Of a DNA stretch of 22,085 nucleotides, positions 753-20,661 are shown in pieces; within the stretch, counting starts at the first letter, position 1, and every line of letters begins with the position of its first letter. A program made the position numbers and the translations under genes. The notes beneath the pieces are model-generated. The model ran no database searches. It was not told the origin of the DNA and saw only the letters and a list, made by a program, of their open reading frames with translations. The stretch is from positions 604 through 22,688 of IMG/VR virus record IMGVR_UViG_3300000116_000053. The stretch is one strand, 5' to 3'. This stretch comes from a virus.

Positions 753-932
753 ATGCCAAGAAACCAAATAGAGAGATTAAAGAACGATAGTCGAGAACTA
801 GATAACTACATCCACCGTCTCAAAAAAAAGGGAAGAGACAATTTAGCGCACAAGTTATCGACAAAACAATTGTACCTTAATCAAACTATTGCCGAGTACG
901 AACAAGGAAATCAAACTCAAATTCTAGCATAA
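753..932 (+). CDS. Small basic coiled-coil protein (59 aa)
   Basis: A 59-residue open frame running from MPRNQIERLKND to a TAA at 930-932. It has a strong AGGAG ribosome-binding site (740-744) 8 nt before the ATG. The protein is very polar, almost entirely helix-forming, and reads as a short coiled coil with a basic middle (HRLKKKGRDN). I do not recognise a named family. The combination of a good ribosome-binding site, a gap otherwise empty of genes, and a hairpin right after the stop makes this a real gene despite its size. Confidence 0.72.
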   Translation: MPRNQIERLKNDSRELDNYIHRLKKKGRDNLAHKLSTKQLYLNQTIAEYEQGNQTQILA

Positions 933-953
933 GGTAGGTGGTCAATATCTCGG

Positions 954-974
954 AGAGGGGACTCGTTCCCCTCT
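954..974 (+). terminator. Hairpin, probable terminator
   Basis: An 8-bp perfect stem (AGAGGGGA at 954-961 with TCCCCTCT at 967-974) closes a 5-nt loop CTCGT. It is followed by TTCGTTAT, a short and imperfect U-run. It sits 22 nt after the stop of the 59-aa gene and about 20 nt before panD, so it separates the small-gene block from the next operon. The stem is strong and the U-tract weak, so it could also be an mRNA-stability or processing hairpin. Confidence 0.6.
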
Positions 975-995
975 TTCGTTATATGGAATTAAATT

Positions 996-1337
996 ATGAA
1001 TCTAACAATGTTAAAATCTAAAATCCACGGTGCAATCGTTACCGAGTGTGATTTAAAATACGAAGGTTCTATTGCAATCGATGAAGATTGGATGGACGCA
1101 GTCGGAATACTCCCCAACGAACAAGTAGATGTTGTCAACCTAAATACAGGTGGACGATGGACTACCTATGCCATTCCATTTAAACGTGGGACGAGTTACA
1201 TAGGTGTCAATGGTGCTGGTGCGAGATTGGCTGTACCTGAAGATGAATTAATCATCATGGCGTATTGTCAACTAACCCCGTTCAAAGCAAGACGATTAAA
1301 ACCGCAAATTATAACTGATAAGGAAATGTATACATAA
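996..1337 (+). CDS. panD: Aspartate 1-decarboxylase (PanD)
   Basis: This enzyme decarboxylates L-aspartate to beta-alanine, the precursor of pantothenate and coenzyme A. The family is made as a proenzyme that cleaves itself between Gly24 and Ser25 to create the pyruvoyl cofactor. Here residues 22-25 read YEGS, placing Gly24-Ser25 exactly at the bacterial position. Other family hallmarks are present: MLKSKIH (5-11, with Lys9 and His11), the AID block (27-29), GILPNE (38-42 region), TTYAIPFKRG (Tyr58 equivalent) and the VNGAGARLA loop. It is 113 aa against about 126 in E. coli, shorter only at the C-terminus. It starts after the hairpin at 954-974, and its stop overlaps the next ATG (TAATG). 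The family call is firm; its presence in a phage is the surprising part. Confidence 0.93.
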   Translation: MNLTMLKSKIHGAIVTECDLKYEGSIAIDEDWMDAVGILPNEQVDVVNLNTGGRWTTYAIPFKRGTSYIGVNGAGARLAVPEDELIIMAYCQLTPFKARRLKPQIITDKEMYT

Positions 1338-1582
1338 TGCCTTTATATACTATCAAAAATAAGAAAACCGAAGACACTCAAACGTTGATGTGTTCTTGGG
1401 ATTCTCTTAATGAAAAGTTGGCAGAACTCGGTGATGACTGGAGTCAAGAAATTGGAGCTCCCGCATTAATAAGTGGTACTGGCAATGTTATCAATAAGAC
1501 AAGTGGTGATTGGAAGAACCTAATGAAGAAAATTGAGAAAGGTGCTGGTGGTGCCAGAGAAGGGAGTAATATCAAGACATGA
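1337..1582 (+). CDS. Small FmdB-like phage protein lacking zinc ligands (81 aa)
   Basis: An 81-residue protein beginning MPLYTIKNKKTEDTQTLM, which follows the N-terminal beta-strand pattern of FmdB-like zinc-ribbon regulators (MPxYxYxC). The paired cysteines are missing: only Cys19 remains. The second half (APALISGTGNVINKTSGDWKNLMKKI) matches, from memory, a small protein seen in other marine T4-like phages. It overlaps panD by one base and PhoH by four, which suggests translational coupling of all three. The role is unknown, and it is not expected to bind zinc. The FmdB relationship is an inference from length and pattern. Confidence 0.65.
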   Translation: MPLYTIKNKKTEDTQTLMCSWDSLNEKLAELGDDWSQEIGAPALISGTGNVINKTSGDWKNLMKKIEKGAGGAREGSNIKT

Positions 1583-2265
1583 CAATGAAACGTCTCAAGA
1601 TAGACCATTTGATGACATACGATGCAATAACATCTAATCAACAAATTGCATACGAATCTTGGAAGGACGGAGACCATCTTGTTCTCTGTGGTTCTGCGGG
1701 TACTGGTAAAACCTTTGTTGGTATGTACCTTGCACTACAGGATGTCATGGACAAATCTTATGACCAAGATAGACTTGTTATCGTAAGAAGTGTAGTCCCT
1801 ACCAGAGAGATGGGTTATTTGCCTGGCTCTGTAGAAGAAAAGGTTGATGCTTATACTGCACCCTATCGTGCAATCGCAACCGAACTATTCAATGAGAAGA
1901 CTGCATACGACAATCTAGAACAACAAGGGATTATTGAGTTTGTATCAACATCGTTTATACGTGGTACAACTCTGGATGATTGTGTGGTGTTGGTTGATGA
2001 GATGCAGAATCTTACATACCATGAACTAGACAGTATTATTACAAGGGTGGGACGCAACAGTCGTATCATCTTCAGTGGTGACTACTATCAGTCTGACCTC
2101 AAGTCGGGTTCAGACAAAAAAGGTATCCTTGACTTCATGAACATCATGGAAGTCATGAATAATTTTACAACCGTAGAATATGGATGGGCAGATATCGTCC
2201 GTTCCGACTTTGTCAGAGACTATATAATGACAAAGGAGATGGTTGAAAGAGGAACGATTAAATGA
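1579..2265 (+). CDS. phoH: PhoH-like ATPase
   Basis: A P-loop NTPase of the PhoH family (228 aa). Walker A is GSAGTGKT at residues 38-45 and Walker B is VVLVDEMQN in the middle of the protein. The family block VIVRSVVPTREMGYLPGS and the sensor-like FSGDYYQSD are also present. PhoH proteins are cytoplasmic ATPases, some with RNA-helicase-like activity; the name comes from the phosphate regulon, but the job in phages is not settled. Phage PhoH is common enough in the sea to serve as a marker gene. The ATG at 1579 overlaps the previous stop (ATGA), and a second Met is at codon 3. Length and motifs are complete. Confidence 0.95.
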   Translation: MTMKRLKIDHLMTYDAITSNQQIAYESWKDGDHLVLCGSAGTGKTFVGMYLALQDVMDKSYDQDRLVIVRSVVPTREMGYLPGSVEEKVDAYTAPYRAIATELFNEKTAYDNLEQQGIIEFVSTSFIRGTTLDDCVVLVDEMQNLTYHELDSIITRVGRNSRIIFSGDYYQSDLKSGSDKKGILDFMNIMEVMNNFTTVEYGWADIVRSDFVRDYIMTKEMVERGTIK

Positions 2266-2726
2266 AATTAAGTAAAAACTTTTCACTCAAAGAGTTTACC
2301 AAGTCTATGACTGCAACTCGTTTGGGTATTGATAACACTCCCCAAGACGAACATCTAGAAGCTGCGAAGGCACTGTTCGAGAACTGTGTACAGAAGGTTC
2401 GTGAACACTTTGGTATCACTCGCATAAGTTCTGGTTACAGGGGCCCTGAATTAAACAAAGCAGTTGGTGGTTCGTCTAAATCACAACACTGTAAAGGTCA
2501 AGCAGTTGACTTTGAGTGTGATGGTACAGATAATCTAGAAGTCGCAAAATGGATTAGAGATAATCTAGACTTTGACCAAGTCATCTCTGAGTTCTATGTA
2601 GATGGTGACCCAACGTCTGGTTGGATTCATCTATCCTACGTAAGTCCTGAAGAGAATCGTAACAGGTGTTTAACTGCACAACGTGTAGATGGTAAAGTCC
2701 AGTATAGTGTTGGATTACCTGTGTGA
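2262..2726 (+). CDS. M15-family peptidase, likely endolysin-type
   Basis: A 154-aa zinc peptidase of the M15 group (D-Ala-D-Ala carboxypeptidase or endolysin type) that cuts peptide cross-links in peptidoglycan. Zinc ligands fit the family signature: His76 in SQHCKGQAVD (74-83), Asp83, and His123 in GWIHLSY (120-126). The N-terminal part (NFSLKEFTKS, then a helical segment and SSGYRG at 56-61) matches the Peptidase_M15_3 layout. There is no signal peptide, so export would need a holin; a two-TM protein encoded at 6245 is a candidate. It overlaps PhoH by 4 nt (ATGA) and the next gene by 4 nt (GTGA). It could serve lysis or be a virion-associated hydrolase. Confidence 0.9.
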   Translation: MKLSKNFSLKEFTKSMTATRLGIDNTPQDEHLEAAKALFENCVQKVREHFGITRISSGYRGPELNKAVGGSSKSQHCKGQAVDFECDGTDNLEVAKWIRDNLDFDQVISEFYVDGDPTSGWIHLSYVSPEENRNRCLTAQRVDGKVQYSVGLPV

Positions 2727-3226
2727 AACATGTACGGGTGTTTTCAATAGAGAACTTTGACAGTCTACAGAAAGAAGCACTGTCACTGATTCCAGTTAAC
2801 ACCAAACAAGTCTATGGGGACTATGATGTTCATGGAGACCCCAAACAGTGGCAACCCAAGACCAAACCGTATTACGATGTTACCATGCGTATGATAAAGA
2901 AGGCCTGCGATACATATTGTAATTCGTGGGGATGTACTTCTTGGAATCTTAATACGTTATGGTATCACGCCTACAACGAAGGTGGAACATATCGGAGTCA
3001 CACTCACACCTTGACAAATATGACTGGTGTGTTACACTTGTTATTAGAAGATGAAAGAGACTGCACCAACATTATGAATTTTGAAAACAACATCAAACAA
3101 GGTGAGGTTGTCTTGTTCCCCTCTATGCACCCACACAAATCTGAAGCTGTTCATGGAATTAAAATCATTATTGGTTTTAACTGGGACATCCACCATGACA
3201 TGAAATTACATGAGGAAGTACAGTGA
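2723..3226 (+). CDS. 2OG-Fe(II) oxygenase-like protein
   Basis: A 167-aa protein of the double-stranded beta-helix 2-oxoglutarate/Fe(II) oxygenase type (2OG-FeII_Oxy_5 pattern). The metal site fits SHTH at 92-95, with a distal His in LFPSMHPHKS (His138). The strand KIIIGFNWD (147-155) occupies the place where the family usually has an Arg that binds the 2OG carboxylate; here it begins with Lys147. The first ligand motif reads HTH rather than the commoner HxD, so activity is plausible but not assured. Members hydroxylate diverse substrates, and the target here is unknown. The start is GTG in a GTGA overlap with the M15 gene. It opens the long tailoring and glycosyltransfer cluster. Confidence 0.72.
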   Translation: MKHVRVFSIENFDSLQKEALSLIPVNTKQVYGDYDVHGDPKQWQPKTKPYYDVTMRMIKKACDTYCNSWGCTSWNLNTLWYHAYNEGGTYRSHTHTLTNMTGVLHLLLEDERDCTNIMNFENNIKQGEVVLFPSMHPHKSEAVHGIKIIIGFNWDIHHDMKLHEEVQ

Positions 3227-4047
3227 ATCTGATATATCAATATATGATAACCAACGAAGAGACAGAAAAACGTGCTCCCGTTCCACAGTATCCTCAAGGT
3301 ACTAGGTCAGAACTCTATCGTGTAACTGGTGATTTATCTGCAAAGTCGTTTCAAATCTATGCGGATAAGATTGGATGTGAACATCACTACTCAACCAAAC
3401 AAGTGTTTACTAAGGGTAAGACTGGTTCAACTGTTTTATTGTTTGAATGTCTACGTATGATTTACGACCCCATGTATGACAAGTACGACAAAGTCGCATT
3501 CATTGATACCGATATCATCTGCAACACCGAAGAGAATATCTTCGATGAGACCAATGGTTACGATGTAACAGGTGTATTCGAATCTGAAATTAAGACTGCA
3601 AAGGGTGGTGGGTACAACACTTGGGACTACAGTGACAAAACTAAGAACGAACTGATTACCAAGTATGAACGCAATGGTATCCCAATAGTCCCCACAGAAC
3701 CCCCATACAGACCCTCTTGTATCACTACCTTCAATACTGGTGTATTGGTGTGGACTAAGGAAGCACGTCTGAAAGCAAGGGAAGAGTTCGATGATTGGTA
3801 TGAATATATGGCAGATGGTGATAAACACGGTGACCCGTTCTGGTTGAACAATGACCAACCTTGGATATCTGGTCAACTAATGAAACATGGATTTAATGTC
3901 CAAAGTATAGACCAGAAGTGGAATGATACTCCTACCCATTGGCCCGATGACCGTGGATATGACATGAACTTCCTCCATTATACTGGGGGTGGTAATAAGG
4001 TTGTTATGTTAGATGACTATAAAAAGGGTAAATTTAAGTACCTGTAA
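3223..4047 (+). CDS. GT-A glycosyltransferase-like protein
   Basis: A 274-aa protein with the layout of a GT-A (GT8-like) nucleotide-sugar transferase. A Rossmann-like N-terminal half leads to VAFIDTDIIC, with the metal-binding DxD at Asp95-Thr-Asp97. It is followed by an acceptor-side region with a conserved-looking FNTGVLVWTKEA and a late LHYTGGG whose His could complete the metal site, as in GT8 enzymes. There is no membrane segment. It starts with GTG overlapping the previous stop (GTGA), and its end is followed by a 38-nt gap that holds a promoter. Donor and acceptor sugars cannot be read from sequence. Confidence 0.78.
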   Translation: MNLIYQYMITNEETEKRAPVPQYPQGTRSELYRVTGDLSAKSFQIYADKIGCEHHYSTKQVFTKGKTGSTVLLFECLRMIYDPMYDKYDKVAFIDTDIICNTEENIFDETNGYDVTGVFESEIKTAKGGGYNTWDYSDKTKNELITKYERNGIPIVPTEPPYRPSCITTFNTGVLVWTKEARLKAREEFDDWYEYMADGDKHGDPFWLNNDQPWISGQLMKHGFNVQSIDQKWNDTPTHWPDDRGYDMNFLHYTGGGNKVVMLDDYKKGKFKYL

Positions 4048-4050
4048 CGC

Positions 4051-4079
4051 TTGCCATTATTGGTTATTCTTGTTATAAT
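4051..4079 (+). promoter_or_regulatory. Sigma70-type promoter with extended -10
   Basis: TTGCCA (4051-4056) and TATAAT (4074-4079) are separated by 17 nt, with TG one base before the -10 (TGTTATAAT). This lies in the only sizeable gap between 3223 and 6234. Transcription should start at about 4086, which is the first ATG of the next gene. The same extended -10 (TGTTATAATA) precedes the tRNA gene. It is likely read by host RNA polymerase early in infection. Confidence 0.72.
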
Positions 4080-4084
4080 AACCA
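4061..4084 (+). repeat. 8-bp inverted repeat over the -10 region
   Basis: TGGTTATT (4061-4068) and AATAACCA (4077-4084) are perfect inverted repeats around an 8-nt centre, covering most of the promoter spacer and the -10 box. It could be an operator for a repressor, or a hairpin ending transcription from the upstream glycosyltransferase gene, though no T-run follows. It is mostly A and T, so chance is possible. Confidence 0.4.
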
Positions 4085-4085
4085 C

Positions 4086-4703
4086 ATGAAGACAGAAACT
4101 AAACTAATAAAAGGAAAAGAAGTGTTAAGTCAATACCATAAGGTAATACTTACAGATGCGGATGGTGTCCTACTAAACTGGGGATACGCTTTCGATGTGT
4201 GGATGACCGAGAAAGGTTATACCGCAGAAAACAAATTAGAATACAATGTCGGTACGATATATGGTATTACTAAAGAAGAATCAAGAAAACTAGTCAGAGA
4301 GTTCAACGAATCTGCCCATATGGGTTTTGTGCCTCCATTAAGAGACGCAATCCAGTATGTCAGAAAGTTGCACGAAGAACACGGTTATGTGTTTCACCTG
4401 ATTACTTCAATGAGTAAAGATGAGAACGCACAGAAGCTGAGAACAATGAATATCAAGAAGTTGTTCGGTGAGACTGCGTTTACTAAGTTCATCTACCTTG
4501 ATACTGGTGCAGACAAGGATGAAGTCCTTGCAAAGTATGAAGGAACAGACTATACTTGGGTCGAAGACAAGGTTGAAAACGCCATTGCTGGTGCAAAGGT
4601 TGGTCTTGACTCTATTGTCATGGAACATGGATACAACATGCATGACGAAAACTTCCCGCTCATGAAGGGTTGGAAAGATGTTTACGAATATCTAGTCGGT
4701 TAA
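4086..4703 (+). CDS. HAD-like phosphatase
   Basis: A haloacid-dehalogenase fold protein (205 aa from the first ATG). Motif I is ILTDADGVLLNW (nucleophile Asp24, acid Asp26), motif II is the LITS strand end, and motif IV is WVEDKVENA near the C-terminus. The spacing and small cap resemble 5'-nucleotidase-type HADs, but the substrate is unknown. The start is uncertain. The promoter at 4051-4079 would begin transcription at about this ATG and leave no leader. An in-frame GTG at 4122 has an AAGGA site 6 nt upstream and gives a protein that begins just before the first beta-strand (MLSQYHKVILTDADG). I list the longer frame but consider 4122 at least as likely. Confidence 0.78.
   Translation: MKTETKLIKGKEVLSQYHKVILTDADGVLLNWGYAFDVWMTEKGYTAENKLEYNVGTIYGITKEESRKLVREFNESAHMGFVPPLRDAIQYVRKLHEEHGYVFHLITSMSKDENAQKLRTMNIKKLFGETAFTKFIYLDTGADKDEVLAKYEGTDYTWVEDKVENAIAGAKVGLDSIVMEHGYNMHDENFPLMKGWKDVYEYLVG
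4110..4115 (+). promoter_or_regulatory. Internal ribosome-binding site favouring GTG 4122
   Basis: AAAGGA lies 6 nt before an in-frame GTG at 4122 and about 25 nt after the predicted transcription start. This is better start geometry than the ATG at 4086, which would be at or beside the 5' end of the mRNA. Confidence 0.45.
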
Positions 4704-4722
4704 AACTTCCCTATATACCTAC

Positions 4723-6234
4723 ATGAGATATGTAGGTTATTCAGAATTGTATCACGATGCAGCCCTTGCCATTGTTAATCCCGATGGCGAGGTTGCATTC
4801 GCATCCCAAGCAGAACGTTACAGTGGTCTAAAAATGGACTCACTGATACATCCGTCTATGTGGCATTTCGTTAACAACGATGACCTCGTCACCTTCTATG
4901 AAGATACCGCATTGCGTCAAGCAAAGATGGGTGGTATTCGAACCTTTGGTCAATGGAGTATCACAGGGTTTACTTCACGCAGTCAAGAACTAAAAACACC
5001 AATCCACACCTCACTAGATTTCGATAGATTTAATTCTCACCACGAAAGTCATCACGCACTTGCGTTTTTCACACGGCCGTGGGAATCAAAAGAAGATACT
5101 GTAATGGTATCTATTGATGGTTCGGGAGAAGTAGAGTCATTAACAATCTATGACCACAACTTCCAAAGTCTCAAAACTATTGATTGGCCACAATCCCTTG
5201 GAACAATATATTCTACAGGATGTGTTGCCTTAGGTATGAAACCACTTCGAGATGAGTACATCTTAATGGGTCTCGCATCCTACGGTGAGTCCAACGAAGA
5301 ACTATACAAACTATTACACAATTGTTACTATTGGTTTGAGAGTGAAGATGGTATCAACACAAAACAAATTGTCGAGTTCGAAGGTAGAGTAATCGCAGAG
5401 AGTCCACTCTCCGCAAAGTTTGCCAAGTACGAAGACCGAATATTAAAAACAGCAGAGAAACTAACTTCAGAAGATGTTGCGGCAACCGTACAAAAGTTCT
5501 TTGAGGTTGAAGTTCTAAAGATAATGAAAGAAGCACGTAAGTATGGTTCTAAGTTGGTCTACTCTGGTGGGTGCGCTCAGAACGTTACCGCAAACAGTCT
5601 TATACGTCCAATGTTCGATGAGATGCATATCTCTGTTGCACCTAATGATGCGGGTAACGCTCTTGGGTGTGCGGCATACACATGGCACAAAGAGACTGGT
5701 GGTACACACCTAAAGTGGTCTCCGTATTTGGGACACAACATAGAACGTGACATAGACCCCAAAGAAGTCGCACAGTATCTTGTAGACAATAAGGTATGCG
5801 GAGTTGCAAATGGTCGTGCGGAGTATGGCCCTCGTGCATTGGGTAATCGTTCATTACTCGCAGATGTGAGATATGATGTGAAGGATACCGTCAATGATAT
5901 CAAACAGAGACATCGATTCAGACCTTTTGCTCCCGCAATACTATCGGAACACGCAGAAGACTACTTCGATGGCCCGATGAATCAGTACATGCAATTCATT
6001 GCGAAGGCAAAACATTCCTACGATTCGGTAACTCACGTTGATGGAACTGCAAGGGTTCAGTTAGTTGAACCTGATTGTGAGTCCGTCCTACGTCAGATAC
6101 TAGAAGAGTATTACAAATTAACGGGTGTACCGATGTTACTAAATACATCATTGAACATTCGAAATAAACCTATGGTTAATACTATAGAAGATGCTATAGA
6201 ATGGGAAGAAAAATATAAAGTAAAAGTATTTTAG
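4723..6234 (+). CDS. NodU/CmcH/TobZ-type carbamoyltransferase
   Basis: A 503-aa carbamoyltransferase; the family moves a carbamoyl group from carbamoyl phosphate, through carbamoyl-AMP, to a hydroxyl group. The N-terminal Kae1-like domain shows the metal-binding His cluster NSHHESHHALAF (His106-His111), the nucleotide site VSIDGSGE (129-136), the block ILMGLASYGES (180-190) and SGGCAQN (281-287). The C-terminal YrdC-like domain carries GRAEYGPRALGNRS (364-377), RPFAPAIL (400-407) and LLNTSLN. It is somewhat shorter than the usual 550-600 aa but not broken. Family substrates are Nod factors, antibiotics and, in some phages, modified cytosine in DNA. No clear ribosome-binding site precedes the ATG at 4723, but MRYVGYSELYHDAALAIV is the expected N-terminus. 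Confidence 0.93.
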   Translation: MRYVGYSELYHDAALAIVNPDGEVAFASQAERYSGLKMDSLIHPSMWHFVNNDDLVTFYEDTALRQAKMGGIRTFGQWSITGFTSRSQELKTPIHTSLDFDRFNSHHESHHALAFFTRPWESKEDTVMVSIDGSGEVESLTIYDHNFQSLKTIDWPQSLGTIYSTGCVALGMKPLRDEYILMGLASYGESNEELYKLLHNCYYWFESEDGINTKQIVEFEGRVIAESPLSAKFAKYEDRILKTAEKLTSEDVAATVQKFFEVEVLKIMKEARKYGSKLVYSGGCAQNVTANSLIRPMFDEMHISVAPNDAGNALGCAAYTWHKETGGTHLKWSPYLGHNIERDIDPKEVAQYLVDNKVCGVANGRAEYGPRALGNRSLLADVRYDVKDTVNDIKQRHRFRPFAPAILSEHAEDYFDGPMNQYMQFIAKAKHSYDSVTHVDGTARVQLVEPDCESVLRQILEEYYKLTGVPMLLNTSLNIRNKPMVNTIEDAIEWEEKYKVKVF

Positions 6235-6244
6235 GAGAAGTACA

Positions 6245-6631
6245 ATGGCAAAACAAATTGCAGACACACCTGTAGGACAGGCAACAGTTGACTTGGAAAA
6301 GTATACTGAGTTAGTTCTCAAGGTGGACGAAGCACAAGATAAAATTAAAGAGATGGAAAAACTCTCTAAAGAACTACAAGTCGTATCAGCGGCCGCAAAA
6401 CCAGTACCAAAAGGTTTCTGGTCTTTGTTTCGAGATGAGAACGACATCAATGAGAAATCTATTATTGGATTTGCATCATTTATAATGATGGTCGTATTCG
6501 GTATATTCGATTTAATTACTGCAATGAACGGTGTACAGTTAGAGATATCTGATACAATCTACACATCCTTTGTTGTTGTAACATTAGGTTCGTTTGGTAT
6601 CGCAGAAGCAGGAAAAGCATTCGGCAAATAG
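6245..6631 (+). CDS. Two-TM membrane protein, possibly holin-like
   Basis: A 128-aa protein with a helical, coiled-coil-prone N-terminal part (residues about 19-49) and a short FWSLFRDEN segment at an expected membrane boundary. Two hydrophobic helices follow, at about 73-94 (IIGFASFIMMVVFGIFDLI) and 105-121 (IYTSFVVVTLGSFGIAEAG). A strong AGGAG site precedes the ATG. The layout resembles phage-encoded small membrane proteins annotated as holins, and an M15 peptidase that would need one is encoded 3.5 kb upstream, but no holin signature is decisive. It sits oddly inside the sugar cluster. It may also be another kind of inner-membrane effector. Confidence 0.68.
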   Translation: MAKQIADTPVGQATVDLEKYTELVLKVDEAQDKIKEMEKLSKELQVVSAAAKPVPKGFWSLFRDENDINEKSIIGFASFIMMVVFGIFDLITAMNGVQLEISDTIYTSFVVVTLGSFGIAEAGKAFGK

Positions 6632-6632
6632 A

Positions 6633-7430
6633 ATGGAAAAAATTAGGTGGAGAGGAACTTGGGGTGTTGGTGATGCGATGCTCGCCCTCAACGTGTGTCA
6701 CAGATATTGTTATGATAATAACATAAAAGTGAATCTTGAGATGCACTGGGAACATGGTGAGGAGTACTTACACTCACCAGAAGACCCTGAGACAATCATC
6801 GAAAGAATGGAGTGGATACATACACAGTATCATCGACAAGATGATGTTACCTTGACCCACGTCTATAACTCTGACCTGTTTGATAAGGGTAACGTTAATC
6901 CTGACAAACAAAAAGATAGATTCTATTTCGACTCAAATGCATACAAACCTACAGGAGCTCCCAGAAACGATTGGGTGTTTAAGAAAAACTTATATCGTAA
7001 TCACGAGAAGAACAAACGTATAGTTATCTGGACACCCCACTATAATACAGAACAACCAAGATTGTGGAAAAGATTCTTGACAAAAGATGATTGGTCGTGT
7101 ATAATAAGCTTAATGCGTAGGGAGGGTTGGATACTGACTGAACTAACATATCGAACACCTATTAGAGATGCGTTTAACCAGATACAAAGAGCAGATTACG
7201 TAGTGTGTTATGATGGAATGTGGCACTACATTGCAAAGAACTTTAGTACACCTATATTCATTCCATCGTGGGAAGGTATCACATCTTACGCTTGTCCTCA
7301 AGTAGTATGTAGGCCTAATAGAAAACACGTCTTAGAATTCTTTGAAACGTTCTTTGATGAGGGTAGACATCACATGGATAAGAAAGCAGATAAATACCTA
7401 CAAAGACTCGGAAAGTTATATGAAAATTGA
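6633..7430 (+). CDS. GT9-like (GT-B) glycosyltransferase
   Basis: A 265-aa protein with the outline of heptosyltransferase-type GT-B enzymes. An N-terminal RGTWGVGDAMLALN (5-18) resembles the GxGDxLxxxP acceptor-domain start. A C-terminal nucleotide-sugar half runs through IVIWTPHYNTEQPRLWKRF, a WILTEL strand, and ADYVVCYDGMWHYIAKNFST, matching the family's 'AD-VVG-DSG--H-A---G-P' pattern with Tyr-Asp-Gly-Met in place of the usual residues. The frame extends upstream to 6594, but the ATG at 6633, just after the previous stop, gives the proper N-terminus. It overlaps the radical SAM gene by 11 nt. GT9 membership is inferred from pattern only. Confidence 0.65.
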   Translation: MEKIRWRGTWGVGDAMLALNVCHRYCYDNNIKVNLEMHWEHGEEYLHSPEDPETIIERMEWIHTQYHRQDDVTLTHVYNSDLFDKGNVNPDKQKDRFYFDSNAYKPTGAPRNDWVFKKNLYRNHEKNKRIVIWTPHYNTEQPRLWKRFLTKDDWSCIISLMRREGWILTELTYRTPIRDAFNQIQRADYVVCYDGMWHYIAKNFSTPIFIPSWEGITSYACPQVVCRPNRKHVLEFFETFFDEGRHHMDKKADKYLQRLGKLYEN

Positions 7431-8382
7431 TAGAGCAGTAATTGAAATTAATGGTGGGTGTAACTACTCATGTACTATGTGTCCACAGGATACACGTACT
7501 GGTGGAAGACATAAAGACTTTCTCAAGAAGATGGGACTAGAAGAGTTTGAGAAGAATGTCGCAGATTGTGCTCAACATGGATTAAGAGTAGTCAACCTAG
7601 AAGGTAGTGGAGAACCCACACTGAATAGAAACCTACCTGAGTACATTAAGATTGTAAAGAAGTATGGAGCCAAGTGTTTCATGTTCTCTAATGGATTCCG
7701 TATGCACGGTGACTTCATGAAGAAGTGTGTTGATGCGGGATTAGACTTCTATAGATTTTCATTCATTGGGTACAACCCTGAGAAGTATGATGAATGGATG
7801 AATAATATCATTGGAGGAAACTTCAATACTATTGTAAATAATATACGTGAAATGAAAGCGTATGTTGATGAATCGAAATCTGACTGTGTGGTCGCAACCT
7901 ACCATCTGATTCTTGACAACAACAATATAAATAATGAATTGGACGCTTATAAAAGTCTAGTCAACGGTCTTGGTGTAAAAACTGAGATATGGAAAATGCA
8001 CAACTGGTCTGGTGTATACGAGATTGGTGAGAACGAGAGAACGGGTGAGGTAAAAACTTGTGGTAGACCTTTTAGTCCCGATGTGGTTATTCGTGCTGGC
8101 GGTACTGGCGGTAAAAGAGGTGGTGTTGCACCATGTTGCCAAGTACTCGGACAAGACGAAAAGGCCGTTCTGGGGCACACCTCTGAGAATACAATCGAAG
8201 AAATATGGAATGGGCCGGAATATACGAAACTCCGTGCTGACCATACTAGCGGAAACTATCCTGATTACTGTCGGAGTTGCGACTTTCTACTTGATGACCC
8301 AGAAGTCTTGGTATATACCAATCACGAGCGTGATTTGATGAAGATGCATGGAACTGAGTTTGACCTGAATGATTACCGATAA
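7420..8382 (+). CDS. Radical SAM/SPASM-like enzyme
   Basis: A 320-aa radical S-adenosylmethionine enzyme. The [4Fe-4S] cluster motif CNYSCTMCPQ gives Cys14, Cys18 and Cys21 (CX3CX2C). It is followed by the SAM-binding LEGSGEPTLN block and a C-terminal cysteine-rich region (TCGRPF, VAPCCQVLG, DYCRSCDF) typical of SPASM domains with auxiliary clusters. The phrase TIEEIWNGPEYTKLR is also typical of that domain. Members modify peptides or sugars, or act as sulfatase-maturing enzymes; the substrate here is unknown. The ATG at 7420 lies inside the end of the GT9-like gene, and the N-terminus MKIDRAVIEINGG fits the usual beta-strand before the cluster. An upstream extension to 7342 overlaps coding sequence and is unlikely. 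Confidence 0.92.
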   Translation: MKIDRAVIEINGGCNYSCTMCPQDTRTGGRHKDFLKKMGLEEFEKNVADCAQHGLRVVNLEGSGEPTLNRNLPEYIKIVKKYGAKCFMFSNGFRMHGDFMKKCVDAGLDFYRFSFIGYNPEKYDEWMNNIIGGNFNTIVNNIREMKAYVDESKSDCVVATYHLILDNNNINNELDAYKSLVNGLGVKTEIWKMHNWSGVYEIGENERTGEVKTCGRPFSPDVVIRAGGTGGKRGGVAPCCQVLGQDEKAVLGHTSENTIEEIWNGPEYTKLRADHTSGNYPDYCRSCDFLLDDPEVLVYTNHERDLMKMHGTEFDLNDYR

Positions 8383-8965
8383 CTTATGGATGATACAGAT
8401 ACCTGATAACGAGGTATCACAACATTATGTAAAACAGTCGATTCCTACATGGGATTGTCATGTTAACTTATTTGATGCATACACTCCAACCGCAATGCCC
8501 GACTATTTGAACTTTGGTAAGTTCTGGGGTCAACGAGAGTTTAGTGAAACTGAGAAGGCAGGATTCTACAGTCATCTAGAGTTATGGCAATTGTGTTTCA
8601 TGGAAGACCGTCCTATCTCAATTATAGAACATGATGTGATGCGATGCAAGAAGGACATGCCTATCATAGGTAACTTCTTTGCGTTTGCAGACTTCGAGGA
8701 TGAGAAAGGTTGGAGAAACTATTCTACCAGATTTAGAGGTCATCCATACTGGGGAACAGACGAACCATTGTGTCCTGTCACACACGCATACTACCTAACC
8801 CCCGATGTTGCGGAGGCGTTATTCTATGCTGTCACCTTAGACCCTCTCACCAAGTTTGTTGACGATTATATGTGGGAGTTCATGGGTCAAGACAAAGACA
8901 AGATAGTACCATATTCTAATCCTATATATTATGAACACATAGGAAGCACGATGGCTCATGAATAA
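8369..8965 (+). CDS. GT25-like glycosyltransferase
   Basis: A 198-aa protein like the lipooligosaccharide galactosyltransferase family GT25. The hallmark block is FYSHLELWQLC (residues 66-76), followed by ISIIEHDV (83-90), which aligns with the family's GCxxSHxxxW and xxExDx segments. The usual EDD is EHD here (Glu87-His88-Asp89). A late segment VTHAYYLTPDVAEALFYAV matches the GT25 'aYliS--gA--Ll' region. The ATG at 8369 overlaps the radical SAM gene by 14 nt; an in-frame ATG at 8390 is an alternative. Two more GT25-like genes at 17049 and 17759 share the EHD change. Confidence 0.75.
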   Translation: MITDNLWMIQIPDNEVSQHYVKQSIPTWDCHVNLFDAYTPTAMPDYLNFGKFWGQREFSETEKAGFYSHLELWQLCFMEDRPISIIEHDVMRCKKDMPIIGNFFAFADFEDEKGWRNYSTRFRGHPYWGTDEPLCPVTHAYYLTPDVAEALFYAVTLDPLTKFVDDYMWEFMGQDKDKIVPYSNPIYYEHIGSTMAHE

Positions 8966-9146
8966 AGTACCCGTACCAGTAAACCCAACCATGATGTTTT
9001 TGGAATATAAAATGCATAGAACCGAAGATATGAAAATACAAATCGATGAGGCTCTATCGCTAGATAAGTTAAATCCCACATGGTCAGAAGGCGACACACT
9101 TAAAATCACGATTGAAGACGATAGGGTTACACTAACTAAATTATGA
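8958..9146 (+). CDS. Small hypothetical protein (62 aa)
   Basis: A 62-residue protein beginning MNKVPVPVNPTMMFLEYKMH and ending in a run of alternating charged and hydrophobic residues (LKITIEDDRVTLTKL) that looks like two beta-strands. It has no cysteines and no membrane segment. It overlaps the GT25-like gene by 8 nt and the next glycosyltransferase by 4 nt (ATGA), so it is read in the same chain of coupled genes. I do not recognise a family. The tight overlaps on both sides are the main support. Confidence 0.65.
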   Translation: MNKVPVPVNPTMMFLEYKMHRTEDMKIQIDEALSLDKLNPTWSEGDTLKITIEDDRVTLTKL

Positions 9147-9934
9147 AGAGACTGATATTCCAAGTATCGGTGGGTAAACCATCTAAACTATACGAACACT
9201 GTATTGAATCAGTCGCACATTATTGTGCGAAGTATGACATTGAACATATCGTATTGACTCAACCTAAACTAAGAATCAAACCTGATATCTTTACCAGTGG
9301 ACGTAGTGAAGAATCCTACATGAAATATGGTGGGTATCTTCCCATCTTTGAAAAGGAGAATGCATTTGAATACCTTGATGATTATGACCAGATTGCAATT
9401 GTGGACGCCGATATTTACATCCGACCTGATGCAGATAACATATTTTCTGACTTTGGTACTGATTTCGCCTTTGGCGCAGTAGCAGAACGTGAGATGGATA
9501 TCCAACAATGGTACGAGGGTAAGATTCAAAACTACTCTGCCATGCAGTATCGACACCTACACGGTAGTGGACAGGGTGACTTTAAACCAAACAATCTAGG
9601 TTACGAGTTCTTTAATATGGGATTGATTCTCTTGAACTCCGAACTATTCAAACCATATCTCAAAGGACAAGACCCACACACCTTTTTGAATCGTATGGAA
9701 TTTAAAGACTTTGTAGATGGTACTGGTGCATACAAGTGGAGTACTGACCAGACCTTATTAAACTATTTCCTGAAGAAGTATAAGATACCTACCAAACATA
9801 TGGAAGGTAAATGGAATGGACTATTTGGTGCAATCAATAATGTAAAGGATTGTAACTTTGTACATTTCTTTCTGAAGGATAAACTCCCTGACGGTGGAGA
9901 AAATGTTGACCAGTTAATGAATCAAATCATATAA
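9143..9934 (+). CDS. GT-A glycosyltransferase-like protein with DAD motif
   Basis: A 263-aa GT-A-fold nucleotide-sugar transferase. IAIVDADIYI carries the metal-binding DxD (Asp88-Ala-Asp90). Later, GYEFFNMGLILLNSELF resembles the 'YFN-G---i' segment of GT8 enzymes, and CNFVHFFLKDKLP near the end could supply the C-terminal His of the metal site. The order matches the gene at 3223, but the two are not close in sequence. It overlaps the 62-aa gene (ATGA). Its stop codon lies inside the late-promoter box of the next gene. Confidence 0.77.
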   Translation: MKRLIFQVSVGKPSKLYEHCIESVAHYCAKYDIEHIVLTQPKLRIKPDIFTSGRSEESYMKYGGYLPIFEKENAFEYLDDYDQIAIVDADIYIRPDADNIFSDFGTDFAFGAVAEREMDIQQWYEGKIQNYSAMQYRHLHGSGQGDFKPNNLGYEFFNMGLILLNSELFKPYLKGQDPHTFLNRMEFKDFVDGTGAYKWSTDQTLLNYFLKKYKIPTKHMEGKWNGLFGAINNVKDCNFVHFFLKDKLPDGGENVDQLMNQII

Positions 9935-9937
9935 ATA
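9930..9937 (+). promoter_or_regulatory. T4-type late promoter (TATAAATA)
   Basis: An exact match to the T4 late promoter consensus TATAAATA, overlapping the stop codon of the upstream gene and 54 nt before the ATG of the next. In T4 this box is read by the phage sigma factor gp55 with gp33 and the sliding clamp. It sits in one of the few real gaps in the window (9935-9991). The AGGAG ribosome-binding site of the next gene would be on the transcript. Confidence 0.65.
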
Positions 9938-9979
9938 ACTAATAGACAATACCGTCAAACTTATATTAATAGAGTGAAT

Positions 9980-9984
9980 AGGAG
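9980..9984 (+). promoter_or_regulatory. Ribosome-binding site fixing start at 9992
   Basis: AGGAG sits 7 nt before the ATG at 9992. An upstream in-frame GTG at 9974 lies before this site and would place it inside the coding region, so 9992 is the start. Confidence 0.75.
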
Positions 9985-9991
9985 AACCCTA

Positions 9992-10690
9992 ATGTTAAAC
10001 CCGAACGATTTTGTGAAGAAGATTCGCAAAGATAACCAAGCCCTGTTCGAAGCGTCCAAGATGAATACTAAGGCGTATTTCGAAGGTGACCTTCCTGAAG
10101 AGGAAATGGTCAATCACTTCATTGGTCGCATGGTCAATGAACGTATGAACATGCAAGAAATCTCAATGCAGATTGCAAATGCATCCGATGACGCAGACCC
10201 TAAAGAGTTAGAACTTCTTTCTAAACAAGCAGCAGACGAAGCAAAACATTACCGTATGGTTCGAGAAGTAATCGAACACATTAAAGGTGAGAAGATTGAT
10301 GTAGTCCAAGCACTTGAAGATGAGAGAAAGGCAAACACCGCAAAAGGTGCTGCACTTCTAGAGAAGTATGATGCACAAGAAGATGAGGCAGTCCTTGCCG
10401 CATATCAACTTGTTGCGGAAGGACGTGCAGAAGCTGTCTGGAATCAGATGGCAGACACCATTCAAGATGAATTCATCTCTACTCGTTATCGTGAGATTGC
10501 GAAAGACGAAGGTTTCCACAGCGCAATCGGTGGATACTCGTTACGTAAACTTGCGACAGATGAAGAGACTCAAAGTCGTGTCCAACGTGTTGTTAACGCA
10601 ATGCGTAAAGACCTATTTGAAATCTCTTGTAGAAATCAAGTTGAAGCAGAAGGTTCGAGAGAACTGGTAAACGCAGCTTACGGTTGGTAG
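9992..10690 (+). CDS. Ferritin-like di-iron protein
   Basis: A 232-aa, almost entirely helical protein with the spacing of a ferritin-like four-helix di-iron carboxylate centre. Candidate ligands are Glu50 (MVNERMN), Glu83 with His86 (ADEAKHYRM), Glu143 (VAEGRAEA), and Glu173 with His176 (AKDEGFHSA), which makes two ExxH motifs. Such centres serve iron storage, oxygenases, ribonucleotide reductase R2 and tRNA hydroxylases; the sequence does not say which. It has its own TATAAATA late promoter and a strong ribosome-binding site. Its base composition (32 of 60 G+C at 10381-10440) is well above that of the AT-rich genes downstream, as in a strongly expressed gene. The stop is directly followed by the next ATG. 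Confidence 0.75.
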   Translation: MLNPNDFVKKIRKDNQALFEASKMNTKAYFEGDLPEEEMVNHFIGRMVNERMNMQEISMQIANASDDADPKELELLSKQAADEAKHYRMVREVIEHIKGEKIDVVQALEDERKANTAKGAALLEKYDAQEDEAVLAAYQLVAEGRAEAVWNQMADTIQDEFISTRYREIAKDEGFHSAIGGYSLRKLATDEETQSRVQRVVNAMRKDLFEISCRNQVEAEGSRELVNAAYGW

Positions 10691-11242
10691 ATGAAAATAG
10701 GACTCACGCAAAGAGTCCTCACGCACAATAAACAAGTACATGATTCCTTAGACCGTTGTTGGTATACATTTCTAAGGGGTCATGAACTTGTTCCTATCCC
10801 AAATCGTGAAGACTTGGATTACGAATCCCTTGCAGAATCTCTAGACCTTCTCATAATTACAGGAGGGGGAAACGAGCGTCATCGAATTACCACAGAAGTA
10901 AACATGGCAACAGAGATGTCCACTCTGGGATTACCCATACTTGGTATATGTCATGGTGCATTTTTACTGACAGAGATTCTTGGTGGTAAAACAAGAACAG
11001 GTAAAGAGAATCACTATGGTGTAGAACATATTGTACACAGTAAGTATGAACCACATTTAGTGAATAGTTTTCACAATATTGTTATTGACAAATGCCCCCC
11101 AAATAGTGTACAATTATGTACAGATGCAGAAGGTGATTGTGAATCTTGGATAAAGGATAACGTCTGTGCAATCGTGTGGCATCCTGAACGGATGGCAATA
11201 CCCTATATACCTACAGAGATTATGAAGGCAACAGGATTATGA
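10691..11242 (+). CDS. Class I glutamine amidotransferase (peptidase C26-like)
   Basis: A 183-aa class I glutaminase domain of the gamma-glutamyl-GABA hydrolase type. The catalytic triad is visible: nucleophile Cys87 in LGICHGAFLL, and His164 with Glu166 in VWHPER. An oxyanion-type LIITGGGNE (54-62) precedes it. The N-terminus MKIGLTQRVLTHNK plus DSLDRCWYTFL resembles stand-alone GATases found in capsule and surface-polysaccharide loci, including, as I recall, the Campylobacter phosphoramidate capsule hydrolase Cj1417. It starts at the base after the stop of the di-iron gene. The hydrolysed gamma-glutamyl substrate is unknown. Confidence 0.85.
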   Translation: MKIGLTQRVLTHNKQVHDSLDRCWYTFLRGHELVPIPNREDLDYESLAESLDLLIITGGGNERHRITTEVNMATEMSTLGLPILGICHGAFLLTEILGGKTRTGKENHYGVEHIVHSKYEPHLVNSFHNIVIDKCPPNSVQLCTDAEGDCESWIKDNVCAIVWHPERMAIPYIPTEIMKATGL

Positions 11243-11895
11243 TTAATATAAAAAAAGGTGAGACCTTTCAAGTTCGTGATGTATGGAGTTATGATATCAC
11301 GTTTGTTGAAGGTAGATATACGAGTGACAATTTCTTAGGAACAAGTTACTTGATGGCCAAAGATTCTAATATTCATATTAGAGATGGATACTCAGTCAAT
11401 GGTAAGAATTTTGCGGGACAGACAACAAAACAATTTACCGTATATGATGACTCCACAATTGCCCATATAAAATTCTATGGTTTATCCATGAATGATGAAC
11501 GTCTGTTTATACCTGAAGATAAATCAACGGGCAATCTATCCTATATGGATGGTGGTACAAACACTACCGCAGTAAATCCTGGCAGACTAGGATTACCTGT
11601 TATCAACTATGTCCATTTCCCAGCAGGGATGAAACAAACCCTACACACCCATCCAAGTCAACGTATTGGTCTTATCCTTTCTGGTAAAGGTGAGATTGAA
11701 CTTGACAATGGTGTAATGTTTCCTATCAAAGAAGGTGACTGTTGGGTGATGGAAAGAAATGTGCTACACAACTTTATGTGTAACCAAGGTGAAGATGTCA
11801 CCCTATTTGTGTTCAGTCCTGACTCTGGTACAGGGCCGACAGATGAAATTAATCCATTGAAGGTGAGAACTTATGTCGGACAAACAAGAGTCTAA
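11239..11895 (+). CDS. Cupin-domain protein
   Basis: A 218-aa protein whose C-terminal half is a cupin. Motif 1 is FPAGMKQTLHTHPSQRIGLI (His136 and His138; the usual Glu is not obvious, with Arg142 near its place). Motif 2 is the block after IKEGDCW, with His177 in RNVLHNF. The N-terminal half is beta-rich and unassigned. Cupins act as sugar epimerases or isomerases, oxygenases or binding proteins; a metal site of three His looks possible. It overlaps the GATase gene (ATGA) and the following P-loop gene by 23 nt, so it probably acts in the same pathway. Confidence 0.83.
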   Translation: MINIKKGETFQVRDVWSYDITFVEGRYTSDNFLGTSYLMAKDSNIHIRDGYSVNGKNFAGQTTKQFTVYDDSTIAHIKFYGLSMNDERLFIPEDKSTGNLSYMDGGTNTTAVNPGRLGLPVINYVHFPAGMKQTLHTHPSQRIGLILSGKGEIELDNGVMFPIKEGDCWVMERNVLHNFMCNQGEDVTLFVFSPDSGTGPTDEINPLKVRTYVGQTRV

Positions 11896-12511
11896 GAAAC
11901 TACTTATTATCACAGGGCCGCAAGGTTCTGGAAATCATCTATTCAGTAAAGTGTTCGGTTATCATCCTGATGTAAAGGGATGGGACTTTGGTGGACAGTA
12001 CTGGATACCATCTGACGAAGAACCCTTTGCGGGCTGTTGGGTTGACCCATCCAAGACAAAGAGTATGTTGACCAAAGACCATGTGGTCGCAAACGTTAGT
12101 GTACCATTTGTCTTTGATGGTGTCAAACAAATTCCTCAGATACAAGAGGTTGTCTACGAAGCACAAGATGCGGGTTACGAAGTAAAGGTCTGTATCGTAA
12201 CAAGAGACCGAACCATTAACGAAGAACAACAACTCAGAGTTCGTAAGGAAATAACCCTACCTACTGCATTGCAGTACTACTACAACCTAGATGCGACTAT
12301 AGAATTCATATCACATGAATCACTCTACCTTTATGGTGGTGCATATCTGAAATGGTTAAGTAAAGTTCTTGACTTTCCGATTGCATATAGTGACGAACGA
12401 CTATTGAAAGATATCAAAGAGAACCAGAATGCGAAGTATGTGAAACACGTAGAGGAACACTGGTTGGATGAACACGTATGGAATGGGATAAGGCCTAAAA
12501 GTGAACGGTAA
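11873..12511 (+). CDS. Sulfotransferase-like P-loop protein
   Basis: A 212-aa P-loop protein. LLIITGPQGSGNHLFSKVF (10-28) has the GxxGSGxxxL form of the 5'-PAPS loop in sulfotransferases rather than a GKT/S Walker A. KVCIVTRDR (about 104-112) resembles the 3'-phosphate-binding Arg strand, and EFISHESLYLYGGAYLKWL recalls the conserved 'yE-L' segment of that fold. Similar proteins occur in other marine myoviruses, from memory. If active it would move sulfate from PAPS to a sugar or protein; loss of activity cannot be excluded. It overlaps both neighbours, by 23 nt and 11 nt. Confidence 0.6.
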   Translation: MSDKQESKKLLIITGPQGSGNHLFSKVFGYHPDVKGWDFGGQYWIPSDEEPFAGCWVDPSKTKSMLTKDHVVANVSVPFVFDGVKQIPQIQEVVYEAQDAGYEVKVCIVTRDRTINEEQQLRVRKEITLPTALQYYYNLDATIEFISHESLYLYGGAYLKWLSKVLDFPIAYSDERLLKDIKENQNAKYVKHVEEHWLDEHVWNGIRPKSER

Positions 12512-13115
12512 ATATTTATTAATGACAGGAGCGCCAGGCAGTAGATGGTCTGGGGTTGCAAATAACATTCAAGCATCTAGTAGTTTTGACCAGACTGATT
12601 GCACTGAAGAAAGGTCATTCTCTCATCATAATGGATTAGTACACGGGGGTGCATACTTTGACCCTATGATGGAATTTGGATTACATAGAGGTGAGTGGGA
12701 CAAACCTTTTTCTGGTGAAGGTATTAGACTAATAAAGTCACATACCTTATCTACATGTTTACATTACTTTGATAAGTTTCCTATTGTTATGGTAATGAGA
12801 AATGACTATGAGTGTTGGACGTGGTGGAACGAGTGTGGTGGTTTTGATATTCCATATCCTAGTTATGAATGGTACAAGAATCAAGATAACATGTTCACAC
12901 AGATACAATTACAAAATACTGCTATAATGTCATTCATATATAATAAGAAGGACAAAGTAATTAAATGTAAAGATAACTTTGAAGTACTTGATACTCTAGG
13001 ATTAAATGCACACCCTTATGGTGGAACACCTATCCCCAAAACAGAATGGGTTAAAGATGTGCAGAGAGATGAATATAATAAAAAGGATGTGAGTGTATAT
13101 GTCTACCAACCTTAA
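12501..13115 (+). CDS. Sulfotransferase-like P-loop protein, AT-rich
   Basis: A 204-aa P-loop protein starting at GTG 12501; MNGKYLLMTGAPGSRWSGV supplies the beta-strand and loop (TGAPGSRWSG, 9-18). IRLIKSHTLS and FPIVMVMRNDYECWTWW (around 93-109) resemble the sulfotransferase 'K-H' and '3-phosphate' Arg regions. The gene is much AT-richer than the di-iron gene: 16 of 60 G+C at 12721-12780 and 14 of 60 at 12901-12960, against 32 of 60 at 10381-10440. That hints at separate acquisition or weak expression. Function is inferred only; it could be a kinase-like P-loop protein. Confidence 0.55.
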   Translation: MNGKYLLMTGAPGSRWSGVANNIQASSSFDQTDCTEERSFSHHNGLVHGGAYFDPMMEFGLHRGEWDKPFSGEGIRLIKSHTLSTCLHYFDKFPIVMVMRNDYECWTWWNECGGFDIPYPSYEWYKNQDNMFTQIQLQNTAIMSFIYNKKDKVIKCKDNFEVLDTLGLNAHPYGGTPIPKTEWVKDVQRDEYNKKDVSVYVYQP

Positions 13116-13656
13116 AACCATCAATGCAGAAACTAGACAATGGTTGAAGGACTACTTCACATACGACTGGCCAAGTTCACGCACTGCGGGACTTGATAGA
13201 TATTACTGGACGGGGTTTAGATTAATTGAAGAAATCAAAGAAGGGGAATCAGTTCTGGATGTTGGTTGTGGTATCAATCCTTTTAAGCGTCATATTGCCG
13301 ACTTGCATGGAATTGATATTACGGACATAGGTTCTGATGAACAAGTAGATGTTCAATACTTTAAATCTGAAAAGAAGTATGACGTTGCGTTTGCATTGGG
13401 TAGTATTAACTTTTGTAGTTATGATACAATAAGAGACCAGACCGAAGGAATGGTTAACGCACTCAAACAGAAGTCTCGCATCTATTGGAGATGTAATCCC
13501 GCACACCGTGACCACGGCAATACAAAAGTAAAGGATGTTCCGTTCTTCCATTGGAGATTAGAACACCATCTTTTGTTATCAAAACGTTTTGGATACGAAG
13601 TTACAGAATTTATGCCTGACCAAAATAGATATTATGTCAAGTGGGAAAGAGAATGA
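13099..13656 (+). CDS. Class I SAM-dependent methyltransferase
   Basis: A 185-aa protein with the Rossmann-type methyltransferase fold. Motif I is VLDVGCGINPFK (52-63), and the acidic strand end is GIDITDIG (71-78). YDVAFALGSINFCSY is the motif IV region, and a C-terminal strand ends in MPDQNRYYVKWERE. The substrate is unknown; the context suggests methylation of a sugar or lipid intermediate. ATG 13099 lies 6 nt inside a GTG-started version (13093) and overlaps the previous gene by 17 nt. It overlaps the sulfotransferase gene at its end (ATGA at 13653). Confidence 0.85.
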   Translation: MSTNLKTINAETRQWLKDYFTYDWPSSRTAGLDRYYWTGFRLIEEIKEGESVLDVGCGINPFKRHIADLHGIDITDIGSDEQVDVQYFKSEKKYDVAFALGSINFCSYDTIRDQTEGMVNALKQKSRIYWRCNPAHRDHGNTKVKDVPFFHWRLEHHLLLSKRFGYEVTEFMPDQNRYYVKWERE

Positions 13657-14351
13657 AGATGTTTATACACATCCCTAAAAATGGTGGGATGACAATAAGA
13701 AAAAATAATAATATAAGACAAAGGGTCTTACTCGGTCAACCTGATAATCTAAAGAATGTCGATTATGTTAGAGGTGTTACATCTAAGATGAATAACACCC
13801 AAGACCACCCAGGCTATGAACACGCAAGGTGGAGAGACTGGAAACAGGATATAAGAGACACACATAAAGCAGTTGCAATCGTTCGTAATCCTTGGGACAG
13901 GGTATGTTCTCGTTATATGTTTGCACGAAAGGTTATATTGCACGAAGGCACTCAACCAGCGAGTTATGCGGATATCTCATCCTTCGAGGCATTCCTAGAG
14001 GAACGTCACAAGTGGGGTGGAGAAGAGTATATGTGGCATCGTGCGGTACGTGGTTGGTACAATGCATACGACCATGTATCAGATGAAGAGGGGAACAACC
14101 GTTGTGACATCCTACGGTTTGAAAATTATAATGATGATGTCAAACAATACTTTGGTTTATTATCTAATCCAGAACCCCGTAACATTACTCGTGTACCTAA
14201 TGACAAAGGTACAACAGGATACGGTACTTCTTATAGGGATATATACACTAAAGATACTATTCAGATAATTGCTGACTGGTATAAGAAAGACATTGACTAT
14301 TGGGGATTTGATTTCGATAGTGGTGCAACGAGGAACTATTGGAATGCTTAA
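13653..14351 (+). CDS. Sulfotransferase (Sulfotransfer_2-like)
   Basis: A 232-aa sulfotransferase that would move sulfate from PAPS to a hydroxyl or amine, usually of a carbohydrate. FIHIPKNGGMTI (4-15) is the 5'-phosphosulfate loop of carbohydrate sulfotransferases (family form HIPKTGGTS). AIVRNPWDRVCSRY (75-88) is the 3'-phosphate block (family form RdPwdRlvS-Y). Both key blocks are intact. The ATG at 13653 overlaps the methyltransferase stop (ATGA); an in-frame GTG at 13641 is less likely. This is the clearest of three sulfotransferase-like genes in 2.5 kb. No PAPS-making enzyme is seen in the window, so the host would supply the donor. Confidence 0.88.
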   Translation: MKMFIHIPKNGGMTIRKNNNIRQRVLLGQPDNLKNVDYVRGVTSKMNNTQDHPGYEHARWRDWKQDIRDTHKAVAIVRNPWDRVCSRYMFARKVILHEGTQPASYADISSFEAFLEERHKWGGEEYMWHRAVRGWYNAYDHVSDEEGNNRCDILRFENYNDDVKQYFGLLSNPEPRNITRVPNDKGTTGYGTSYRDIYTKDTIQIIADWYKKDIDYWGFDFDSGATRNYWNA

Positions 14352-14967
14352 AGAACTATTTGACAAGTACCAGTGTGATAAGGGTACAGAAAAACATCAC
14401 TACTATAAAGAGTATGAACTATACTTTGAAGAACGTAGGGAAGAACCACTCAACTTTTTGGAGATTGGTACATTCAAGGCTGCATCTACGGCTGCATTTA
14501 ATGAGTATTTTCCTAACGCAAACATATACACGATTGACATCTTCCAGAGAACCGACCCGAAGGATTTGAAAATCCTACACAGCGACAGGGTACATTGGTT
14601 GAAAGCGGATTCTATGGACGCATCTCTTGGTACGAAAATAAGAAAGAAATGGGGACAAGACATTAAGTTTGATTTTGTTATTGATGACGGAGCGCACTGG
14701 CCTGAAGCAAACAGATTAACCTTTGAAAACATTGTACCCTTTCTAAAAGAAGACGGAGTCTATTTCATTGAAGATGTGTGGCCAATGCATAAGATGAGTA
14801 GAGAAGGACTGAAACATCCGTGGTTACTACGACAACCTGATAAGTATGATATGTTAAAACACAATCGTTTCATGTCAACATTGGATGCTTACGATACAGA
14901 ACACCATGACCGAATAAAAGAAACCAAATGTGGCGACACATATATTATAGCGATAAAACATAAATGA
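14344..14967 (+). CDS. SAM methyltransferase, MycE/macrocin O-methyltransferase-like
   Basis: A 207-aa methyltransferase resembling the sugar O-methyltransferases of macrolide pathways. The N-terminus LFDKYQCDKGTEKHHYYKEY (5-24) fits their 'D-y--DKg--HhY---Y' opening. Motif I is FLEIGTFKAAST (38-49), and FDFVIDDGAHWPEANR (109-124) carries the metal-binding acidic pair (Asp114-Asp115 region), with GVYFIEDVW after it. Such enzymes methylate sugar hydroxyls and often need Mg2+. It overlaps the sulfotransferase gene by 8 nt and the next gene by 4 nt. An upstream extension to 14269 runs through the sulfotransferase gene and is rejected. Confidence 0.82.
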   Translation: MLKELFDKYQCDKGTEKHHYYKEYELYFEERREEPLNFLEIGTFKAASTAAFNEYFPNANIYTIDIFQRTDPKDLKILHSDRVHWLKADSMDASLGTKIRKKWGQDIKFDFVIDDGAHWPEANRLTFENIVPFLKEDGVYFIEDVWPMHKMSREGLKHPWLLRQPDKYDMLKHNRFMSTLDAYDTEHHDRIKETKCGDTYIIAIKHK

Positions 14968-20586: not shown

Positions 20587-20661
20587 GCCTCCGTAGTTTA
20601 ACGGATAAAACAGTCCGCTACGAACGGACAACTCGTGGTTCGATTCCATGCGGGGGCGCCA
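20587..20661 (+). tRNA. tRNA-Arg(ACG)
   Basis: A 75-nt tRNA with encoded CCA. The acceptor stem is GCCTCCG (20587-20593) with CGGGGGC (20651-20657), with one G-T pair. The D stem is GTTT with AAAC, and the anticodon stem is GTCCG with CGGAC around the loop CTACGAA. The anticodon is therefore ACG (Arg, reads CGU and, after A-to-I editing, CGC and CGA). The variable region is AACT, and the T stem CGTGG/CCATG closes the loop TTCGATT. The discriminator is G, and CCA is at 20659-20661. All arms fold, so it looks functional. Editing by host TadA would be needed for wobble decoding. Confidence 0.95.

Follow-up and report, generated by a model that had tools for sequence, protein, structure and literature searches.

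A predicted aspartate 1-decarboxylase gene carried as a removable one-gene cassette in a group of T4-like marine viruses

The window, as we refer to the whole stretch of DNA that was analyzed (22,085 nucleotides), belongs to a virus record of 40,727 bases (40.7 kb). The genes and features of the window on which this analysis draws are as follows.

753 to 932, plus strand: orf59, a conserved 59-aa open reading frame (ORF) and left border of the panD cassette, identified from 74 related loci
931 to 982, plus strand: conserved intergenic element, AAGGTAGGTG plus a GC-rich hairpin, kept with or without panD
996 to 1337, plus strand: panD, predicted aspartate 1-decarboxylase proenzyme of 113 aa, assigned from family matches, alignment and an AlphaFold model
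1065 to 1070, plus strand: Gly24-Ser25 codons, the predicted self-cleavage site from alignment to E. coli PanD
1337 to 1582, plus strand: 81-aa ORF of PHROG 385 ('transcriptional regulator'), right border of the panD cassette
1579 to 2265, plus strand: phoH, whose start overlaps the stop of the 81-aa ORF, in the same coupled run
2262 to 2726, plus strand: M15 peptidase/endolysin, in the same coupled run
4723 to 6234, plus strand: NodU-like carbamoyltransferase, representative of a glycan-type cluster and also found in panD-less relatives

The panD frame runs from an ATG to a TAA stop, which the ATG of the PHROG 385 ORF overlaps by 1 base. Overlapping starts and stops continue through PhoH, the M15 peptidase, a 2OG oxygenase and a glycosyltransferase-like gene, and this arrangement suggests that the run from panD to the glycosyltransferase-like gene is probably a single transcript. 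A promoter search returned none above chance. An earlier sequence-only reading had described panD as lying beside PhoH and outside a pan operon; there is indeed no pan operon, but the 81-aa ORF separates the two genes. Upstream of panD, the element at 931-982 is found at the equivalent position in a majority of the 74 orf59 loci, and the next gene, whether the PHROG 385 ORF, panD or a methyltransferase-like gene, begins just 3' of it. The sequence of its hairpin stem varies with pairing kept, as judged by eye. An Rfam match to 'Xist_exon1' at 908-987 was taken as chance (20 bits versus a gathering threshold of 50). Further downstream, positions 3223-18406 hold glycosyltransferase-like, radical SAM/SPASM, NodU carbamoyltransferase, GATase, cupin-like and HAD-nucleotidyltransferase fusion genes, a run that resembles a surface-glycan or small-molecule pathway.

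Family searches with the 113-aa product revealed a match to Pfam PF02261 (Asp_decarbox; E 2e-39) covering residues 1-108, and a score of 116.7 bits against the NCBIfam equivalog TIGR00223 (panD), above its cut-off of 106. These scores rule out a chance resemblance to PanD, and together with the position of the ORF they bear out the original proposal of a phage panD here. The top relatives of solved structure were the PanD proteins of M. tuberculosis and E. coli; no PHROGs family was found for the phage protein. All three sequence blocks named in the sequence-only reading were located in the product, namely YEGS at residues 22-25, which represents the Y-x-G-S cleavage motif, TYAI at 57-60 and VNGAGA at 71-76. 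In an alignment of 36 phage and bacterial PanDs, residues K9, H11, Y22, G24, S25, T57, Y58, G73 and D83 were invariant, including the three (Lys9, Thr57 and Tyr58) whose absence had been named as evidence against the assignment; R54 and N72 were also retained in the window PanD. The AlphaFold model of the window PanD (pLDDT 96.9) has the PanD beta-barrel fold, and across 107 columns its rmsd to unprocessed E. coli PanD structures was 0.7-0.9 A (for 1PQE/1PPY, TM about 0.92 and about 0.8 A). As judged from sequence and modeled structure, the product is a full-length canonical pyruvoyl-type aspartate 1-decarboxylase, and we infer from the same evidence that it would be cleaved at Gly24|Ser25 and be active as a decarboxylase.

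We also examined eight phage panD copies for signs of selection. Pairwise pN/pS ranged from 0.08 to 0.39, with most values at 0.2-0.4, and in the majority of pairs dS was close to 1 or higher. Phage panD is under purifying selection and has been kept, not decayed.

Elsewhere on the record are genes for a gp32-like ssDNA-binding protein, tail tube, baseplate, DNA end protector and neck. The gp32, tail, baseplate and neck genes identify the record as a T4-like myovirus fragment. Its gp32 shared 69% identity with that of C48C1, a phage placed under Kyanoviridae, and about 54% with that of Methylophilales phage Melnitz, and the window PhoH was about 50% identical to cyanophage PhoH. A megablast of the whole window against phages gave zero matches, and there is thus no close isolate. 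An alphaproteobacterial host is a tentative suggestion from the nearest cellular relative of the window PanD. A tRNA-Arg (ACG) gene at window positions 20587-20661 is a possible further host clue.

Comparison of related loci revealed that panD in the window's virus group is a one-gene removable cassette. The comparison covered 74 loci marked by orf59 in viral contigs; some of these contigs may represent one and the same phage population, and the counts are therefore of contigs and not of independent phages. At 24 loci panD lay between orf59 and the PHROG 385 ORF, which were spaced 396-438 bp apart, and in 42 (42 of the 50 panD-less loci) panD was absent and the spacing was 66-108 bp. Another gene occupied the panD slot in five loci, so that the slot resembles a cargo hotspot; the remaining three loci were assigned to none of these classes. 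By eye, the five slot genes are methyltransferase-like (L163 at 3416, L194 at 6225, L196 at 6225, L211 at 6247 and L212 at 2416). When 23 records of panD-less relatives (22-144 kb) were searched whole, none carried panD elsewhere. On a backbone tree built from DUF6433 and PhoH, the nearest relatives of the window are without panD, and about five gains or losses of the gene are needed.

A related T4-like lineage (L131, L140 and L141) has an empty site at the orf59-PHROG 385 slot; its panD lies about 2.9 kb upstream, where it follows nrdA-nrdB and precedes an endonuclease II-like gene. L213 and L215 have panD at 6241, in the same slot as the window, and their product, 54% identical to the window PanD, is more distant; it may be a divergent form of the window gene product or a substitute for it.

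Relatives of PanD were encoded by 66 viral contigs, which fell into several distinct groups, and a 113-row PanD tree contained 7 label changes. The nearest cellular relatives of the window PanD were those of two marine Alphaproteobacteria, Rhodobiaceae bacterium UBA7378 (L027; 62% identity) and Parvibaculaceae (L028; 60% identity), and the window group was sister to the UBA7378 protein with moderate support (79-92). A joint clade of the nrdAB-lineage and window-lineage panD was rejected in one tree (p-AU 0.025). With the L213/L215 panD added, a single origin of the T4-like phage panDs gave p 0.07-0.13; on these values a separate bacterial capture for the nrdAB-slot panD was dropped, and only a different insertion place is claimed. 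It is possible on these trees that the T4-like phage panDs share one origin. No accessory neighbor common to panD across phage lineages was found. Several PanD matches filed as phages (H1-H9 and H12-H14) sit on unannotated or bacterial-looking records and are not countable as phage panD.

PanD makes beta-alanine, the precursor of vitamin B5 (pantothenate) and coenzyme A (CoA), and pantothenate synthesis is its established role. In the mechanism we propose, the 113-aa proenzyme would fold as a PanD protomer and cut itself between Gly24 and Ser25 to generate the pyruvoyl cofactor, and the mature enzyme would convert aspartate to beta-alanine during infection. Host PanC would then take the beta-alanine to pantothenate and on to CoA, with phage PanD relieving a limit in hosts whose own PanD is scarce or absent. 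We infer both expression of panD and this destination. The reading we favor, with somewhat better than even confidence, is that panD serves this T4-like marine phage as an auxiliary metabolic gene and that its beta-alanine most likely passes through host PanC to CoA.

Searches for pantothenate/CoA partners covered PanB, PanC and ACP in records that were mostly fragments. PanB was found in none of the 28 phage records searched and true PanC in none of the panD phages searched; weak PanC matches in three other panD phages were ORFs of 138-158 aa that by inspection encode a TagD-like cytidylyltransferase, and these were rejected. An ACP-like match was present in one of 22 records, that of a remote panD phage. 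Since no PanB or true PanC was found in panD phages, the beta-alanine would have to pass to host enzymes. Of 144 genomes sampled from the class to which the nearest cellular relative belongs, 27 had PanD and 82 had full-length PanC, and 58 of these 82 were without PanD by the same search (genomes of unstated completeness). These counts suggest that the sampled class has many hosts with PanC but without PanD, in which phage PanD would supply the missing step; the window phage's own host may or may not be one of them. Three observations weigh against the favored reading: the neighbors of panD differ between phage lineages and the gene context is not CoA-specific, the PanB, PanC and ACP searches yielded no companion pantothenate or CoA gene for panD, and most backbone relatives manage without panD.

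An active enzyme might instead benefit the phage by a drain on aspartate, by the use of protons in decarboxylation or through another host sink for beta-alanine, a reading we consider improbable, though the strongest of the alternatives. It would fit panD being the sole piece of the CoA pathway found in the phage, but it sets aside the established role of the enzyme. Other viruses, moreover, carry panB or pantothenate kinase (PMC8940887).

The sequence-only reading had also raised the idea that the beta-alanine goes into a compound of the phage, for instance a beta-alanyl-modified sugar or peptide from the glycan-type cluster. This cluster does lie on the same strand a few kb downstream, with glycosyltransferase-like genes, NodU, radical SAM, a nucleotidyltransferase fusion and GATase. 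The idea is weakened, however, because at least 20 relatives without panD have NodU, the one cluster gene checked for co-occurrence, at the corresponding position; in panD phages of other lineages, furthermore, panD is surrounded by replication or nucleotide genes and has no accessory partner that these lineages share. We regard it as quite unlikely.

That panD has no function in the phage, whether as a neutral passenger or through decay, seems more doubtful still; its patchy presence (24/74 loci) speaks for this, but diverged copies are under purifying selection, the active site is complete and panD recurs in unrelated phages. Misassembly or host contamination is excluded in practice, because the junctions repeat across contigs: although several other PanD matches in phage databases sit on doubtful records, the gene order is identical in 24 contigs, a further 42 show precise empty sites, and panD shares the 40.7 kb record with tail, gp32 and neck genes.

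Viral genes of this pathway have been described before. Oxygen minimum zone viruses carry genes for pantoate transferase (panB) and pantothenate kinase, with the same proposed purpose as that favored here for panD (PMC8940887); panB (K00606) appears in a list of virus-enriched genes (PMC4022391); and a sargassum study assigns viral genes, left unnamed in the passage concerned, to the beta-alanine and pantothenate/CoA pathways (PMC11295528). A literature search of partial coverage found no paper describing a phage panD, which is a weak absence. The original suggestion of a phage gene for CoA supply, a strategy not known there to be common, keeps its core, an apparently intact and selected panD outside a pan operon, but loses some of its novelty, since viral pantothenate/CoA genes are published and Jace gp87, a phage protein, is already annotated. 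Phage panD is a genuine but precedented case of a phage gene that would draw on host vitamin metabolism.

The gene adds the beta-alanine step to the published pantothenate/CoA genes of marine viruses and suggests that beta-alanine supply is limiting for phages, and the matched backbones with and without panD make the benefit of carriage directly testable. More tentatively, panD may be a roaming one-gene cassette gained separately by many phage lineages, with beta-alanine a true bottleneck of infection, above all where hosts turn beta-alanine into pantothenate without PanD; Gly75 and a short C-terminus, common to several phage copies, may then escape host control. We hold this broader proposal to be possible and no better than speculative.

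Among known systems, the panB and pantothenate kinase genes of marine viromes share pathway and proposed purpose with phage panD and encode other enzymes; panD goes unnamed in the relevant passages of PMC8940887 and PMC4022391. Two isolated phages carry annotated counterparts, Gordonia/Rhodococcus phage Jace (gp87, annotated aspartate decarboxylase; 47% identity to the window PanD) and Achromobacter phage 2-1 (annotated panD; 36% identity); both are unrelated to the window virus, and their panD neighbors differ. In UBA7378 panD is chromosomal and adjoins a sigma-factor gene, whereas the window copy is phage-borne. The bacterial PanD proteins of E. coli (1PPY) and M. tuberculosis (2C45) match the window PanD in length range, fold, cleavage motif and catalytic residues. 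Compared with E. coli PanD, the window protein is 45% identical, has Gly75 in place of the usual Ala75 and is shorter by about 13 residues at the C-terminus, and in contrast to bacterial panD its gene is carried by a phage and lies outside a pan operon.
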